A stretch of DNA of 64,000 nt from Nitrosomonas halophila (GTDB lineage Bacteria > Pseudomonadota > Gammaproteobacteria > Burkholderiales > Nitrosomonadaceae). Location: positions 1-64,000 of the forward strand of contig NZ_FNOY01000005.1 in assembly GCF_900107165.1 (NCBI RefSeq), read 5' to 3'. The notes under the pieces were generated by a model, which was not told the origin of the DNA, did no database searches, and saw only the letters and a program-made list of their open reading frames with translations. Of the stretch, positions 57,813-64,000 are shown one piece after another (the first letter of the stretch is position 1; every line of letters begins with the position of its first letter). A program made the position numbers and the translations under genes.

Positions 57813-57975
57813 CTAGGAGGCTGTCCGAGAATAGCGTAGCGAGGGCGAAGCTGACTGAGCGGGATTTTTAGATCATTTGAGGCGAATAGTTGTTCTATTC
57901 AACGAAAAGGATAGAAAAATCCAGCCTGGCAGGTTTGTTCGCAGTAGATCAGTCTATTCTCGGTCAGCCTCCTAG
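57813..57975. repeat. MITE-like dispersed repeat, family C, copy 2
   Basis: 163 bp with 22 bp terminal inverted repeats (CTAGGAGGCTG(T/A)CCGAG...), one mismatch, and the central hairpin more degraded than in the other copy. The right end CCTCCTAG contains the TAG stop of the small HTH gene (57972-57974). Confidence 0.9.
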
Positions 57976-58211
57976 AGGCTGATGCGTTTGTTTTTCCTGA
58001 TCAGACCACTTTCCTCGGCTGCACGAAGCGCCTCGTAGCGGCAATGCACGCCTAACCGCTCCATGACTCTCTGATATTGGGTGCGAACAGTCGCCGGAGA
58101 ACGATTCAAGTGTTGTGCAAGTATTTTGGTATTGGTCGTTTTCTTTTCAAGACTTGCTTCCAGCAAGGTATAAAAAGAGGGGGATAGACGTCCGGACTGC
58201 CTTTTACTCAT
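57972..58211 (-). CDS. Small LuxR-type HTH protein (single domain)
   Basis: 79 residues. LEKKTTNTKILAQHLNRSPATVRTQYQRVMERLGVHCRYEALRAA is a GerE/LuxR-type helix-turn-helix with the T-V-R-x-x-Y-x-R-V recognition helix, but there is no receiver or autoinducer domain, so it may act as a lone DNA-binding regulator. Its TAG stop lies in a family C repeat end, so the original C terminus may have differed. Target unknown. Confidence 0.7.
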   Translation of the reverse strand: MSKRQSGRLSPSFYTLLEASLEKKTTNTKILAQHLNRSPATVRTQYQRVMERLGVHCRYEALRAAEESGLIRKNKRISL

Positions 58212-58695: not shown

Positions 58696-59751
58696 ATGAA
58701 AAAAATATTACTCCTGGCACTGCTGTTAAGTGCGCAGGCATACGCTCAACATGAGCAGGGTCATCAAGGTGGCATGCATGAGGGTGGTCATCATGGCGGA
58801 AAGCATGCTGGCGAACATCGTGGCAAGCATCATGGCGGCATGCATGGCGGTGGCCCGGGACTGGATGAAGCAACCCTCAAGCAATTCTTTGAACCGCTTC
58901 CCGCTTCGATCATTGACGAGCAAAAGAACGAAGCCTTGATCAAACTTGGCAAAGTGCTTTATATGGATCCCAGGCTTTCGGTCAATGACACCATTTCCTG
59001 CAATTCCTGTCATCGCCTGGACAAATTTGGCGTGGATAACGAACCGACCTCACCCGGCCACGCAGGCAAACGCGGCGGCAGAAACTCGCCCACTACCCTC
59101 AATGCCGCACTGCATATCGCTCAATTCTGGGATGGCCGGGCCAAGGATGTCGAAGAGCAGGCCCTTGGGCCCATCCTGAATCCCGTAGAAATGGGCATGC
59201 CGAGTGAAGCCGCCGTCATCGCCAAATTGAAAAAAATCGAGGCCTATCAGACACTCTTTGCAGAGGCGTTCAAAGGCAAGGATGATCCCTTCCAATACAA
59301 AAACATTGGCGTTGCCATTGGCGCTTTCGAGCGCACGCTGTTGACGCCCTCCCGTTTCGATGACTTTCTCAATGGCGACAAGGAGGCACTCAGCCAGGCC
59401 GAACAAAGAGGGCTGAAGAAGTTCATCCACATGGGATGCGCCACTTGCCATAACGGTGTGGTGCTGGGTGGCAATTCATTCAAGAAAATAGGCATGGTCG
59501 AGCCCTATGAAACTGCCGATATGGGCCGATATGAGGTCACCGGCATCGAAAGCGACAAAAAAGTATTCAAGGTGCCCAGCCTCAGAAACATCACCCAAAC
59601 CGGCCCCTATTTTCATGATGGATCCGTCGAAACACTGGACGAAGCCATTCGCTTGATGGCCAAGCACCAACTGGGCCGGCAAGTGGGTGAAGGCTTTGTC
59701 AGGGACGTGAAACTCTTCTTCGGATCCTTGACCGACAAGGAAAGCGAATAA
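58696..59751 (+). CDS. Diheme cytochrome c peroxidase/MauG-family with His-rich N terminus
   Basis: Periplasmic reduction of hydrogen peroxide by two c-type hemes. 351 residues: signal peptide MKKILLLALLLSAQAYA, then a segment to about residue 60 made of His, Gly, Met and Lys (repeated HHGG, GKHAGEHRGKHHGG), likely metal-binding, then the catalytic part with heme motifs CNSCH at 102 and CATCH at 248, and FKVPSLRNITQTGPYFHDGSVETLDEAI near the C terminus. The metal-rich N-terminal extension is unusual for the family. Confidence 0.92.
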   Translation: MKKILLLALLLSAQAYAQHEQGHQGGMHEGGHHGGKHAGEHRGKHHGGMHGGGPGLDEATLKQFFEPLPASIIDEQKNEALIKLGKVLYMDPRLSVNDTISCNSCHRLDKFGVDNEPTSPGHAGKRGGRNSPTTLNAALHIAQFWDGRAKDVEEQALGPILNPVEMGMPSEAAVIAKLKKIEAYQTLFAEAFKGKDDPFQYKNIGVAIGAFERTLLTPSRFDDFLNGDKEALSQAEQRGLKKFIHMGCATCHNGVVLGGNSFKKIGMVEPYETADMGRYEVTGIESDKKVFKVPSLRNITQTGPYFHDGSVETLDEAIRLMAKHQLGRQVGEGFVRDVKLFFGSLTDKESE

Positions 59752-60215: not shown

Positions 60216-61613
60216 ATGGAAAACTTTTCCAAAAAAATCTTGGTTGCCAGTATCGTTCTTGCATTTGGTGCTGCAGGCAATGCTTGGGCCAACCCAACCA
60301 ATACTGCGGCTGAAGGCTTTGAAGGCGACCAACACGCCAGTGTTAATTCCCATGCCGAAGGAACCGGTACTGCTTCTTCGAGTGAAGGCAGCACATCGAC
60401 AGTTGGCGATGTGGAAAGCAACAACGCCTACGACAACAGCGACAACAGCGTAGCCGACAACAGCGATAACAGCAACAATAGCGACAACAGCAACAACAGT
60501 GATAACAGCGTAGCTGACAACAGTGATCACAGCAACAACAGTGACAACAGTGACAACAGCGATAACAGCAACAACAGCGATAACAGCGTAGCTGACAATA
60601 GCGACAACAGTAACAACAGTGACAACAGCAACCATAGCGACAACAGCGTAGCTGACAACAGCGATAACAGCAACAACAGCGACAACAGCGTAGCCGATAA
60701 CAGTGATAACAGTAACAACAGCGACAACAGCAACCATAGCGACAACAGCAACAACAGCGATAACAGCGTAGCTGATAACAGCGACAATAGTGACAACAGC
60801 ATCGCTGTCGAAGCTGCTGTAGGAATTGGTGATGGCAATGCGTCTGCTACCAATGGCAGCACCGCAACGGCAGACAATAGTGATAACACCAACAACAGCA
60901 TCAACGACTCATACAACCAGACCGCCACCGACTCGTACAACAACACTGATGATAACAGCGACAACAGCTATTCATCGGCTGCAGGAGATGGCGGCGCAGC
61001 TTCTGCCAACAATGGCAGCACCGCCACAGTTGACAACAGCGACAATAGCGATAACAGCGACAACAGCTATGCAGCCGCTGAAAGCAGATCTGCTTCTGCC
61101 AATAATGGCAGCACTGCAAATGTAGACAACAGCGACCACAGCGATAACAGCTATGCCACCGCATCCGACAACTCGGCTGCGGCCAACAATGGCAGCACCG
61201 CCACAGTTGACAACAGCGACAATAGCGATAACAGCGACAACAGCGACAACAGCTATGCAGCCGCATCTGAAAATTCGGCAGCAGCCAACAATGGCAGCAC
61301 CGCTACGGTTGACAACACCAACAACAGCGACAACAGCAGCACTCATGCAGATAATGGTGGTGCAGCTGCCAATGTTGGTAACGCAACCAGCACCTACTCT
61401 GTTAACAATGCCACACTGGCCGGCACGGTAACAGGCGAAGGCGTCGGCACTATCCAGGTTGACTATGATAACGCTGCAGTCAATGCCCACAATGCGATTG
61501 ACAATTCTTTCAATGGCGCTGCGGGTCTGAATCAAGTTGCCCAAAACATGGGATCCAACTCACTGATTCAACAACAAGTATCTTTCCAAGGCAACGTAAA
61601 CGTCAATCAGTAA
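60216..61613 (+). CDS. Secreted low-complexity repeat protein, candidate amyloid/adhesin subunit
   Basis: 465 residues from ATG at 60216 with a strong AAAGGAGAA; an upstream in-frame ATG at 60141 lacks this. Signal peptide ILVASIVLAFGAAGNAWA. From about residue 69 to 210 the chain consists of SDNS/NNSDNS/SVADNS units, continuing with NNGSTATVDNSDNSDNS units to about residue 400. It ends with QVAQNMGSNSLIQQ and NVNVNQ, like the Q/N-rich motifs of amyloid-type secreted proteins. Coding bases repeat as GAC AAC AGC, so slippage-prone. The downstream genes resemble a Fap secretion set. The exact family is not recognised from memory. Confidence 0.8.
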   Translation: MENFSKKILVASIVLAFGAAGNAWANPTNTAAEGFEGDQHASVNSHAEGTGTASSSEGSTSTVGDVESNNAYDNSDNSVADNSDNSNNSDNSNNSDNSVADNSDHSNNSDNSDNSDNSNNSDNSVADNSDNSNNSDNSNHSDNSVADNSDNSNNSDNSVADNSDNSNNSDNSNHSDNSNNSDNSVADNSDNSDNSIAVEAAVGIGDGNASATNGSTATADNSDNTNNSINDSYNQTATDSYNNTDDNSDNSYSSAAGDGGAASANNGSTATVDNSDNSDNSDNSYAAAESRSASANNGSTANVDNSDHSDNSYATASDNSAAANNGSTATVDNSDNSDNSDNSDNSYAAASENSAAANNGSTATVDNTNNSDNSSTHADNGGAAANVGNATSTYSVNNATLAGTVTGEGVGTIQVDYDNAAVNAHNAIDNSFNGAAGLNQVAQNMGSNSLIQQQVSFQGNVNVNQ

Positions 61614-61650
61614 GATTGATCACGTTTAACCTGCTTTAGTTGATATGGAT

Positions 61651-61694
61651 AGCTGGCAAGTCATGCTCGATTCAGCTTGCTTGCCAGCTTTTTT
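61651..61694 (+). terminator. Rho-independent terminator between the repeat-protein gene and the downstream genes
   Basis: A 10 bp perfect inverted repeat AGCTGGCAAG (61651-61660) with CTTGCCAGCT (61680-61689), followed by six T. It would make the subunit mRNA more abundant than the downstream part. Confidence 0.85.
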
Positions 61695-61737
61695 CCAGGT
61701 TGGATACGCGAGCGTAAATTAGAAAGGTGGGTTTGAT

Positions 61738-62106
61738 ATGAATACCCTAATCAGAAAGAGTCTCATTGCTCTGGCGATGTCGATCCCGGTTAATGTGCTG
61801 TATGCTGCTCCGCCTGATTCGGAGGAGTTTTTGGAAGGTACGCTGCTTTTTCACGCCGAAAAAGCATCAATTGAGGAACTGGACAATGCACGCGGCCGGG
61901 AGGGAATCGATGTAACAACGCTCAACAACATGAATGTACGCGCGACACTTACCGATAACAATGCAACCAATAATACCAGCGGCTTCAATATCATTGATCA
62001 CGGTTCCTTTGCCGGTGCGGGTGGTATGTTTTCAGTCATCCAGAATTCAGGTAATAATGTATTGATACAGGATTCCACAATCATCAATGTCACGATTTTG
62101 CCTTAA
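61738..62106 (+). CDS. Small secreted protein with GG-leader-like motif and amyloid-like C terminus
   Basis: 122 residues, signal peptide to about residue 23 (MSIPVNVLYA). After it SIEELDNARGREG (residues 44-56) resembles a double-glycine leader cleavage site, and the C-terminal half ends FSVIQNSGNNVLIQDSTIINV, a Q/N motif like that of the upstream protein. Candidate substrate of the nearby C39 peptidase and component of the surface fibre. Ribosome site AAAGGTGG. Function inferred from context. Confidence 0.75.
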   Translation: MNTLIRKSLIALAMSIPVNVLYAAPPDSEEFLEGTLLFHAEKASIEELDNARGREGIDVTTLNNMNVRATLTDNNATNNTSGFNIIDHGSFAGAGGMFSVIQNSGNNVLIQDSTIINVTILP

Positions 62107-62234
62107 TAAGCAAGCACATCCTGAGCAATAATTCAGGCAGACTATATCTTGGCAAGAAGCTGAATTCGTAAGTATTTTACAAAATTGTTGCCGTAATAAC
62201 CGAGCAGCCATTTCACAGACCCCGAGACCCAGAC

Positions 62235-62924
62235 ATGAAATTTCGACCGATACTGCTTCTGATAGTTTGGATAATGACTGGTGGCACTGCCTTTGGCATA
62301 GAACTGGTCGGCATTGCAGGTGGGGGTAATTTCAACATCCAGGGAAAAAGTTTTGCCGAGCGCCGTTTCAGTACCGTCTATCGGCAGCAGTTTGATTTCA
62401 GTTGCGGTTCAGCTGCGCTGGCTAGCCTGCTCACTTATCATTATGACGATATCGTCGATGAGCAATCCGTTTTCGTCGACATGTTTCAGCATGGCAATCA
62501 ACAGAAAATCAAGAAAGAAGGATTTTCCATGCTGGATATGAAGCTCTATCTCGAGCGAAGAGGGTACCCCTCGGATGGTTTCAAAATAAACTTGGACCAA
62601 TTGTACTCCACCGGCAGCCCCGCCATCACCATCATCAATGACAAGGGTTACATGCATTTTGTCATTATCAAGGGTGTCGATACCCATAAAATATTGGTGG
62701 GCGATCCAGCGCAAGGGGTAAAGATTATCGCCAGACATGAATTTGAAAAAATGTGGGGCAATCGCATCTTATTTCTGATTCACGGCAACCTAGATCCTGA
62801 AGTATCCTATCAGCAAGCTCGTCAGGAATGGGCGGATCGGTCAGCCCCTTTGGGAGACGCTGTTGACCGCTCCAGCTTGGCAATTTTCAATGTGTTACGT
62901 CCTGGGCCCTGGGATTTCCGCTAG
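62235..62924 (+). CDS. Stand-alone C39-type cysteine peptidase, FapD-like
   Basis: 229 residues with a signal peptide (about 21 residues), so likely periplasmic. The C39 fold has Cys57 in DFSCGSAALASLL, His141 in GYMHFVII and Asp157 in VGDPAQG; all three are in place, and GSAALASLL is the family pattern. There is no ABC transporter domain, unlike bacteriocin-exporting C39 proteins. In the Pseudomonas fap operon a C39 protein (FapD) has the same place before FapE/FapF. Two neighbours carry GG-leader-like motifs it could cut. Confidence 0.88.
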   Translation: MKFRPILLLIVWIMTGGTAFGIELVGIAGGGNFNIQGKSFAERRFSTVYRQQFDFSCGSAALASLLTYHYDDIVDEQSVFVDMFQHGNQQKIKKEGFSMLDMKLYLERRGYPSDGFKINLDQLYSTGSPAITIINDKGYMHFVIIKGVDTHKILVGDPAQGVKIIARHEFEKMWGNRILFLIHGNLDPEVSYQQARQEWADRSAPLGDAVDRSSLAIFNVLRPGPWDFR

Positions 62925-62948
62925 GCGCTTTTAGGAGAGGGAGGAACA

Positions 62949-63449
62949 ATGAAAACCAGCAACGTTCAACAAAAAAAAGTCAATGTTCCAGCGATTCTTC
63001 TAACAGCCACCTTCGCCTGCTTGTCAGTACCGGCAGCAGCCGAAGGTGTGGATAATGTGGCCTATCGATCAGCTTTTGATCATGATAACAATTGGGAACG
63101 GGCGACAGACGATGAGCTCGATGAATTGAGAGGCGGGTTTATTCTTCCCAATGGCGTACGCATTGATTTAAATCTGGAAAAAATCGTCATGCTGAATGGC
63201 AACGAACTGTTCTCATCCTATTTTCAAACGCCGAAAGACACTTTATTGCTGCAAAACGGCATTCAGAATTTGGTCTCCGACTCCGTCACAACGCCAGCAA
63301 TGGGTTCTTTCATCCAGAATACACTGGATGACCAACAGCTCCGCACGATCACGGAAATCAACATAGAAATCAGCAATCTGCAGAATGCAGAAATAATTAA
63401 CAGCGATCATCGGGTTTTTACAGATTTTATCATGCCTGGGTTAAAATAG
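62949..63449 (+). CDS. Secreted protein with DDELDELRGGF motif, FapE-position protein
   Basis: 166 residues; signal peptide to about residue 34 (LLTATFACLSVPAAA). Residues 54-64 read DDELDELRGGF, close to the double-glycine leader consensus of C39 substrates. The later part shows GSFIQNTLDDQQLRTITEINIEISNLQ, similar to the Q/N motif in its neighbours. Located between the C39 peptidase and the pore protein, where FapE lies in known fap loci. Strong GGAGGAAC ribosome site. Confidence 0.78.
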   Translation: MKTSNVQQKKVNVPAILLTATFACLSVPAAAEGVDNVAYRSAFDHDNNWERATDDELDELRGGFILPNGVRIDLNLEKIVMLNGNELFSSYFQTPKDTLLLQNGIQNLVSDSVTTPAMGSFIQNTLDDQQLRTITEINIEISNLQNAEIINSDHRVFTDFIMPGLK

Positions 63450-63494
63450 TTCAATAGGCTGAGATTGTAAAAGCTGTCGATCGCGGAGAGGAAT

Positions 63495-64000
63495 GTGCGC
63501 AACAAAATTGCTTTATCACTGAAAATCATAAAATATCCATTTCTTGTCACTTGTCTGTCAATCGCTACCACAGCATTCCCGCAAACAAACGAACCAGACG
63601 AGATACTCCAGCAATACAAGGTGCTCTTTGCGGAGCAACAAAAAGAATTCGAGAAACAACGCCGTATCATTATTGAGCAGGGAAAGGAAATAGAAAAACT
63701 CAAAACTCGTCTCGATAGCCTTTCCAAACAGCCCGCCAAATCGGCCCAATCAAGTCAGCCCCCTGCCCCGAGTCCTGCCGGCAACGCTCAGACCGCACAA
63801 CCTAGCAGGCCGGCCGATAAAGGCCCCGGTCAAACTACTGCGCAAGCAAAGCCTGCCAATATGCCTGCCGGCCCGGTTGGGCAAGCGCCTCCACAAAAAG
63901 AGGAAAAACCGAGACCGCCCGAAATGCCAAGGCTAAGCGACACGGTCGGAGGTGTCCTGACACGCAAAGGGAAATTTGTAATCGAACCGACACTGGAATA
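63495..64000 (+). CDS. FapF-like outer-membrane pore protein with coiled-coil N terminus (partial, runs off window)
   Basis: Starts with GTG at 63495 (AGAGGAAT upstream) because the nearby ATG is in a short frame. After a signal peptide (KIIKYPFLVTCLSIATTAFP) comes a predicted coiled coil about residues 33-70 (YKVLFAEQQKEFEKQRRIII), a Pro/Ala-rich linker to about 145, then GGVLTRKGKFVIEPTLE, where the beta barrel seems to begin. This matches the layout of FapF, the fibre-exporting pore. 168 codons are in the window. Confidence 0.82.
   Translation, partial: MRNKIALSLKIIKYPFLVTCLSIATTAFPQTNEPDEILQQYKVLFAEQQKEFEKQRRIIIEQGKEIEKLKTRLDSLSKQPAKSAQSSQPPAPSPAGNAQTAQPSRPADKGPGQTTAQAKPANMPAGPVGQAPPQKEEKPRPPEMPRLSDTVGGVLTRKGKFVIEPTLE

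Follow-up and report, generated by a model that had tools for sequence, protein, structure and literature searches.

The first 64,000 bases of a 93-kb contig of Nitrosomonas halophila (NZ_FNOY01000005.1), referred to here as the window, end in a five-gene locus (60216-64838, all on the + strand) with the order P1, P2, C39 peptidase, P4 and pore, the last gene being read on past the window end. This locus is probably a variant of the export genes of the Pseudomonas Fap system that carries an unrelated, modular subunit (P1), is widespread in Proteobacteria and exposes a probable cut site of the FapD peptidase. An original prediction made from the window alone had proposed this gene set, order and strand for an ammonia oxidiser; all five genes are present and complete once the sequence is read beyond the window, and the genome has an AMO family match (E 6e-115). 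Between P1 and the pore, the list of open reading frames (ORFs) contains none beyond the five genes, no search with a FapA model having been made, and signal-peptide-like starts of the locus proteins were judged by eye. The features of the locus are the following (aa, amino acids; AF2, AlphaFold 2; pLDDT, predicted local distance difference test):

60216..61613, + strand: P1, low-complexity subunit of 465 aa with a signal-peptide-like start, an SDNS spacer, imperfect NNGSTATVDN repeats and a conserved C-terminal unit (ORF, 16-row alignment, composition)
60432..60840, + strand: acidic DNS/NNS spacer of P1, residues ~73-208, predicted to be disordered (AF2 blocks 35-43 pLDDT)
61002..61439, + strand: imperfect repeats of P1 (A-A-N-N-G-S-T-A-T-V-D-N...), residues ~263-408, spacing 28-34 aa, predicted beta-solenoid (ten-residue blocks 51-87 pLDDT)
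61476..61610, + strand: conserved C-terminal unit of P1, GAAGxNQxxQNxGxNxLxQQxVxxQGN, common to the P2 C-terminus (alignment, profile comparison)
61651..61689, + strand: terminator-like hairpin followed by T6, between P1 and P2 (folding, z -4.0)
61738..62106, + strand: P2, 122 aa, leader with a degenerate double-glycine site and C-terminal unit QNSGNNVLIQ (alignment, profile comparison)
61894..61899, + strand: G53-R54 of P2, predicted FapD cut site (ELDNARGR; aligned rows)
62235..62924, + strand: FapD-family C39 peptidase (NCBIfam C39_FapD, Pfam Peptidase_C39)
62949..63449, + strand: P4, FapE relative with a canonical double-glycine leader (alignment, hhalign)
63132..63137, + strand: G62-G63 of P4, predicted FapD cut site (ELDELRGG/F; aligned rows)
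63495..64838, + strand, 838 bases beyond the window: FapF-type pore, coiled coil then barrel (NCBIfam FapF, PDB FapF)

The peptidase matches NCBIfam C39_FapD (E 6e-37, 127.1 bits) and Pfam Peptidase_C39 (E 2.6e-19), and the residues Q51, C57, H141 and D157, which we take to be the catalytic residues of a C39 peptidase, are invariant in 11 aligned rows, in agreement with the complete triad and FapD affinity foreseen for this protein. The pore matches NCBIfam FapF (E 1.3e-40, residues 47-447, 139.5 bits) and over residues 153-447 it also aligns with the solved structure of FapF, 5o67 (E 6.9e-26), so that the gene continues past position 64000 as the FapF-type barrel that had been anticipated behind the coiled coil. 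Because both proteins score below the NCBI equivalog cut-offs (330 bits for FapD and 700 for FapF), they are, judged by sequence, kin of FapD and FapF and not textbook members; three other loci have a FapD of 401-441 bits, above the NCBI cut-off.

To place the locus among its relatives, 94 loci (91 distinct) were examined, namely the locus itself, those of 13 further relatives and 80 from a scan of named genomes in which the best 80 of at least 583 peptidase relatives were kept. The records L018/L032, L020/L033 and L025/L039 are the same, L028 is a classical Fap locus, and L029/L030 belong to another C39-barrel type. A P1-like gene lies upstream of the peptidase in 73 of the 94 loci, P2 upstream in 84 and P4 downstream in 87, and FapF is found in 87 (same strand 45, other strand 42, none in 7 within the stretch examined); all five genes occur in 62/94 loci and in 49/64 of those with full context. 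Carriers among the best 80 of at least 583 relatives include Nitrosomonas, Methylobacter, methanotrophs, Colwellia, Burkholderiales and Geobacteraceae. The type, suggested to be made by ammonia oxidisers, is not confined to them, since methanotrophs, Colwellia, Burkholderiales and Geobacteraceae share it, and within the genus Nitrosomonas its distribution is patchy (P2 in 18/85 genomes). In a midpoint-rooted FapD tree, the bootstrap of which is not fully settled, some Nitrosomonas rows group with Methylobacter and Methylomonas (17 rows, 96/86) and others with Colwellia and Paraglaciecola (27 rows, 100/99). A betaproteobacterial genus is thus placed among gammaproteobacteria, which points to transfer; for classical Fap, transfer is reported as infrequent in the part of the source available (PMC3792158).

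The same-genus loci L029 (6225-9835) and L030 (7190-9090) carry a second kind of C39 peptidase and coiled-coil barrel pair, accompanied in L029 by two small proteins with leader-like sites (LTEAQMDNISGG, LTDAQMDAATAG), and this pair looks like another relative of the system. In L022 (6072-7783) P2 and the FapD end appear frameshifted, and a sequencing error is possible there because the aspartate aminotransferase is also split into two ORFs.

Leaders of the double-glycine type, as processed by C39 ABC exporters, follow a grammar of L-7, G-2 and G-1. The P4 leader has L-7 in 66/69, R-3 in 67/69, G-2 and G-1 each in 67/69 and F+1 in 60/69 aligned rows, and L-7, G-2 and G/A/S at -1 occur together in 64/69, with a mean column identity of 28% among 11 P4 rows. 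In P2 the leader is more degenerate: L-7 is found in 79/83, R-3 in 65/83 and G-2 in 73/83 rows, position -1 holds R in 34 rows and G in 31, and the combination of L-7, G-2 and G/A/S at -1 is present in 27/83. These motif counts leave out P4 rows of at least 260 aa (18 of 87) and 1 of 84 P2 rows and include the duplicate records; the P2 alignment consists of the window P2 and 52 of the 70 listed P2 relatives. The pattern L...RGG within residues 21-160 occurs in 69/87 P4 and 25/84 P2 proteins and in 13/962 other genes of the loci (5/243 of those with signal-peptide-like starts).

The two helper proteins are related to each other over the leader and the C-terminal part (hhalign 97.6%, E 3.8e-12), and P2 is related to the C-terminus of P1 (hhalign 94.6%, E 7.3e-8); at E<=1e-3, a six-row P1 profile picks up 58/84 P2 proteins and none of the reversed copies, and the shuffled copies all stay at 0.41 or above. 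This shared C-terminal unit bears on the reading of P2 and P4 as bacteriocin- or signal-like peptides that FapD matures and that are then released, with P1 incidental. Although the leader grammar fits such a role, as do the nearest solved structures by sequence to the peptidase, which are C39 domains of peptide exporters, the C-terminal unit of P2 is found on P1 as well, a P1-like gene is the upstream neighbour in most loci (73/94) and no ABC exporter-like ORF is seen by eye among those listed around the locus, so that we regard this reading as very improbable.

P4 aligns with 14 classical FapE proteins (hhalign probability 93%, E 2.6e-7, 39 columns around the site). The proposed order fapD-fapE-fapF therefore stands with P4 as FapE kin, but the locus is not a fapABCDEF operon, as FapB/FapC repeats are lacking. 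At the matching place classical FapE has [L/M]xxxRG[R/K] in 15/17 classical loci (the 15 best-scoring FapD-model loci plus L028 and L112), and also in 3/3 other loci the FapD of which passes the NCBI cut-off; the site lies at residue ~39 after the likely start in L161 and at residues 44-72 in mechanical ORFs. Published work, as far as the accessible parts of the papers go, describes the FapD cysteine as required for FapC secretion, the Fap proteins as devoid of canonical C39 sequences and the FapD target as unclear in 2017 (PMC5557850), and a 2018 review still terms the FapD substrate undetermined (PMC6173800). The excerpted text of the 2017 paper also singles out Pseudomonas FapE as the one protein without N-terminal peptides in mass spectra, with a gap to ~residue 70 (PMC5557850). 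The conservation of the site suggests that FapD cuts FapE, and here P2 too, after the leader element, and from the matching site in classical Fap we therefore propose FapE as FapD substrate there as well.

A small 'LWDE' protein of 104-139 aa is encoded upstream in the operon at the classical fap loci L143, L144, L145, L148, L151 and L028. At the place matching the leader site, as judged by eye, it has G in five and A in one of the six, and it is possibly a further FapD substrate.

An alternative target of the peptidase is the pore itself: FapD would mainly cut FapF at a GG that precedes the barrel, while P2 and P4 would keep their leader-like motifs as targeting signals. FapF has indeed been named as a possible target in the available portions of two papers (PMC5557850, PMC5135000), and a VGG-VLT-type junction is present in 23/45 same-strand FapF proteins. 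However, this junction is PG in 15/45 and the pattern is not found in 6/45, against the near-invariance of G-2 and G-1 in P4, and we consider cutting of FapF as the main activity unlikely.

The subunit P1 is read from 60216, a start preferred because the signal-peptide-like start there is conserved in relatives; the mechanical ORF opens at ATG 60141 (490 aa). P1 contains 43 DNS and 30 SDNS units, 57 D versus 3 K+R and no Cys, and its isoelectric point (pI) is ~4.1. The coding DNA is periodic, yet the DNS triplet is spelled in eight ways and P1 relatives keep the repeat style at differing lengths, which argues that the repeat is coding and not an artefact of the DNA. Repeats start at residues 210, 263, 294, 322, 356 and 384. 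In an alignment of 16 rows (the window P1 and 15 of the 25 available N-rich relatives) conservation is strongest at the C-terminus and also covers the signal-peptide-like start, the spacer varies in length, and NPTNTA-type starts and NNGSTA-type repeats are found in most rows. Across the loci, P1-like proteins range from N/S/D-rich with a pI of ~4 to G/A-rich, the C-terminal unit being kept and the rest varying. P1 has no match among Pfam or NCBIfam families and is present in one copy in its own genome. In the AlphaFold model (mean pLDDT of the whole 48) the spacer is disordered and the repeats form a beta-solenoid; the repeats may adopt this fold, in a prediction made from 16 rows for a type of repeat that is easily modelled so. 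A VIA structure comparison places beta-helical chains among the 28 chains with Z>=2 (best Z 6.1), matches that may merely reflect a common arrangement.

Two further ideas about P1 were set aside. Glycosylation via sequons was dropped, a single D/E-x-N-x-S/T being present. The granules of ammonia oxidisers hold amyloid-like extracellular polymeric substances described as tryptophan-rich in the accessible part of the source (PMC6291783), and P1, which has one Trp, is not claimed to be this material.

That the subunit would differ from Pseudomonas FapB/FapC is borne out by a FapC-repeat profile, which finds 0/88 P1 and 0/84 P2 proteins and in the 94 loci only L028, itself classical. The profile was built from the C-terminal repeats of 16 classical FapC, so its 17/17 classical loci are given by construction and the zero elsewhere is the informative result; it also finds the shorter FapB-like proteins of classical loci. 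By hhalign the P1 C-terminus does not align with the FapB C-terminus (3%) or the FapC repeat (0.3%), and P2 gives borderline values with both (19% and 13%, respectively). These data bear directly on the view that this is an ordinary Fap amyloid operon the FapC of which has diverged beyond recognition. Such a view draws on the kinship of FapD, FapE and FapF in Fap order and on the highly variable size and linkers of FapC, as reported in the available text of PMC3792158. However, the profile finds nothing in P1 or P2, the P1 C-terminus is unrelated to either repeat protein by hhalign, P1 without Cys can have no CxxC, and the FapD tree separates the groups, the classical rows forming their own clade at 100/100 (seven classical rows were used, part of the 17 classical loci being left out, as were L018, L020, L025, L029 and L030). 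P1 as a diverged FapC was accordingly rejected, and an ordinary Fap operon is in our judgment improbable. Compared with Pseudomonas Fap (fapABCDEF), the locus shares the C39 FapD, a FapE that has its RG site in the corresponding position, the FapF pore and the order D-E-F. It differs in having P1 and P2 in place of the FapB/FapC repeat proteins (GNxGNxxAGxxNQQxN), none of which was found, in RGG as against RG[R/K] in FapE, in a separate FapD clade with FapD and FapF below the equivalog cut-offs, and in a P1 without the CxxC of FapC.

A rival with a better claim holds that P1 is no amyloid but a mucin-like surface polymer, acidic and disordered, that leaves through the Fap pore, only the C-terminal unit being structured and tethering P1 to P2. 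The predicted disorder of ~135 residues of SDNS spacer, the low pI, the absence of FapB/C repeats and the retention of the C-terminal unit by P1-like proteins that are otherwise N/S/D-rich to G/A-rich all fit such a polymer. Set against it are the NNGSTA-type repeats in most of the 16 N-rich rows, modelled as a solenoid, and the fact that the known cargo of the Fap machinery, according to the excerpts of PMC5557850, is amyloid. We hold this reading to be a tentative one, with somewhat less than an even chance.

The sequences themselves give the gene content, the kinship and the conserved sites, and from these we infer that the locus is quite likely a secretion operon of Fap-like type by which P1 reaches the cell surface, with FapD cutting the leaders of P2 and P4. 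In the proposed mechanism, all five proteins would cross the inner membrane by Sec, and FapD in the periplasm would cleave P4 and P2 after their double-glycine-type sites (LxxLRGG and LxxARGR, respectively), thereby removing the leaders. The trimmed helpers would then open or prime the FapF pore, through which P1 would be exported, its C-terminal unit joining the related unit of P2, which would serve as starter. The NNGSTATVDN repeats would stack as a beta-solenoid and extend the assembly, and the acidic SDNS part would cover it with a hydrated layer. Through the hairpin after P1, the cell could produce subunit in excess of machinery. This hairpin, predicted originally as a terminator after the subunit gene, folds at -22.6 kcal/mol (z = -4.0) and is followed by six T, though it is absent from a consensus terminator scan and was missed by a strict scan in this locus too; across loci the strict scan finds a hairpin in 16/64 P1-P2 gaps and in 0/27 P2-FapD gaps.

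Several observations weigh against this mechanism. The P1 model is mostly of low confidence, Foldseek finds for it no solved fold with E<=0.001 (FapC itself, 9u4u, at E 5), and with no FapB/C repeat match an amyloid nature by homology is not supported; the P2 model has a mean pLDDT of 57. The window P2 has R and not G at -1, and a loose pattern L...xG[GARK] is found in 63/84 P2 proteins but also in 239/962 other locus genes. No kinship is detected between P4 and the P1 C-terminus (hhalign 0.16%), and all hhalign values are pairwise and not calibrated against a database. A GG before the FapF barrel is conserved in the sister clade, and FapF was named earlier as a double-glycine candidate in the part of the literature source available (PMC5135000). 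Finally, the published FapE peptide gap (~residue 70) extends beyond the site in the examined loci, which lowers confidence in the explanation slightly.

On a broader scale, we lean, with little to spare, towards a sister class of Fap that is widespread and relies on a single pore and a single periplasmic C39 protease to export modular passengers with unrelated compositions. Two related double-glycine-leader helpers would be the substrates of the protease, and the same site, with R/K at -1, would be used on Pseudomonas FapE. Such a class would be left out of a recent GTDB survey, which, in its accessible text, retained only clusters with FapBC_repeat homology (PMC12392863). Neighbouring fapD-fapF genes were noted in five further phyla by an earlier review, as its available sections state (PMC6173800), so such pairs are already known. 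In open-licence PubMed Central, consulted mostly as listings, no account of this operon type was found, which is no proof that none exists.

Other known systems are more distant. The Fil 'putative pilus' system, which we take to be that of Acinetobacter, also combines a C39 peptidase with a barrel; its matches are weaker than those of FapD and FapF (FilB E 4.6e-31 vs 6e-37, FilC 1.3e-12 vs 1.3e-40) and below cut-off (108.2 of 475 bits and 47.7 of 630 bits, respectively), and Fil as nearest family was rejected. C39 ABC exporters share with the locus the C39 fold and the L-7, G-2, G-1 leader peptides, whereas the peptidase here has its own signal-peptide-like start and lacks the ABC transporter part. 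Curli likewise has a repeat subunit with N/Q-rich motifs and an outer-membrane pore, of a different family; it was rejected, no CsgG (PF03783) being found in the organism's own genome (0/1 genome, 99% complete). Curli genes are mentioned for another Nitrosomonas species in the accessible part of the granule study (PMC6291783).

The surroundings of the locus offer candidates for its regulation. A small helix-turn-helix (HTH) protein at 57972..58211 on the - strand is a possible, weak regulator candidate (GerE 21.1 bits, below the 23.5 cut-off), and an HTH-like protein also lies upstream of P1 in L018 and L020, the L018 copy having a weak DeoR match only. The same-genus loci L023 (2449-4321) and L025 (3293-5274) have histidine-kinase-like and LuxR-type response-regulator-like ORFs upstream of the P1 genes (by eye), which are candidate regulators. 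Between the HTH gene and P1 the window encodes a di-haem cytochrome c peroxidase (58696-59751; CCP_MauG, E 2.7e-56) with a His/Gly-rich N-terminus; in L018 and L020 the ORF lists show no counterpart at this position.

In all, the operon provides a candidate surface protein of Nitrosomonas and suggests that cargo devoid of FapC repeats is also served by the Fap pore family. FapD is essential for amyloid secretion in Pseudomonas, and its substrate was given as undetermined in the available text of the papers of 2017 and 2018 (PMC5557850, PMC6173800). In the sister operons the C39 leader is canonical, whereas at the corresponding place in classical FapE it is degenerate.

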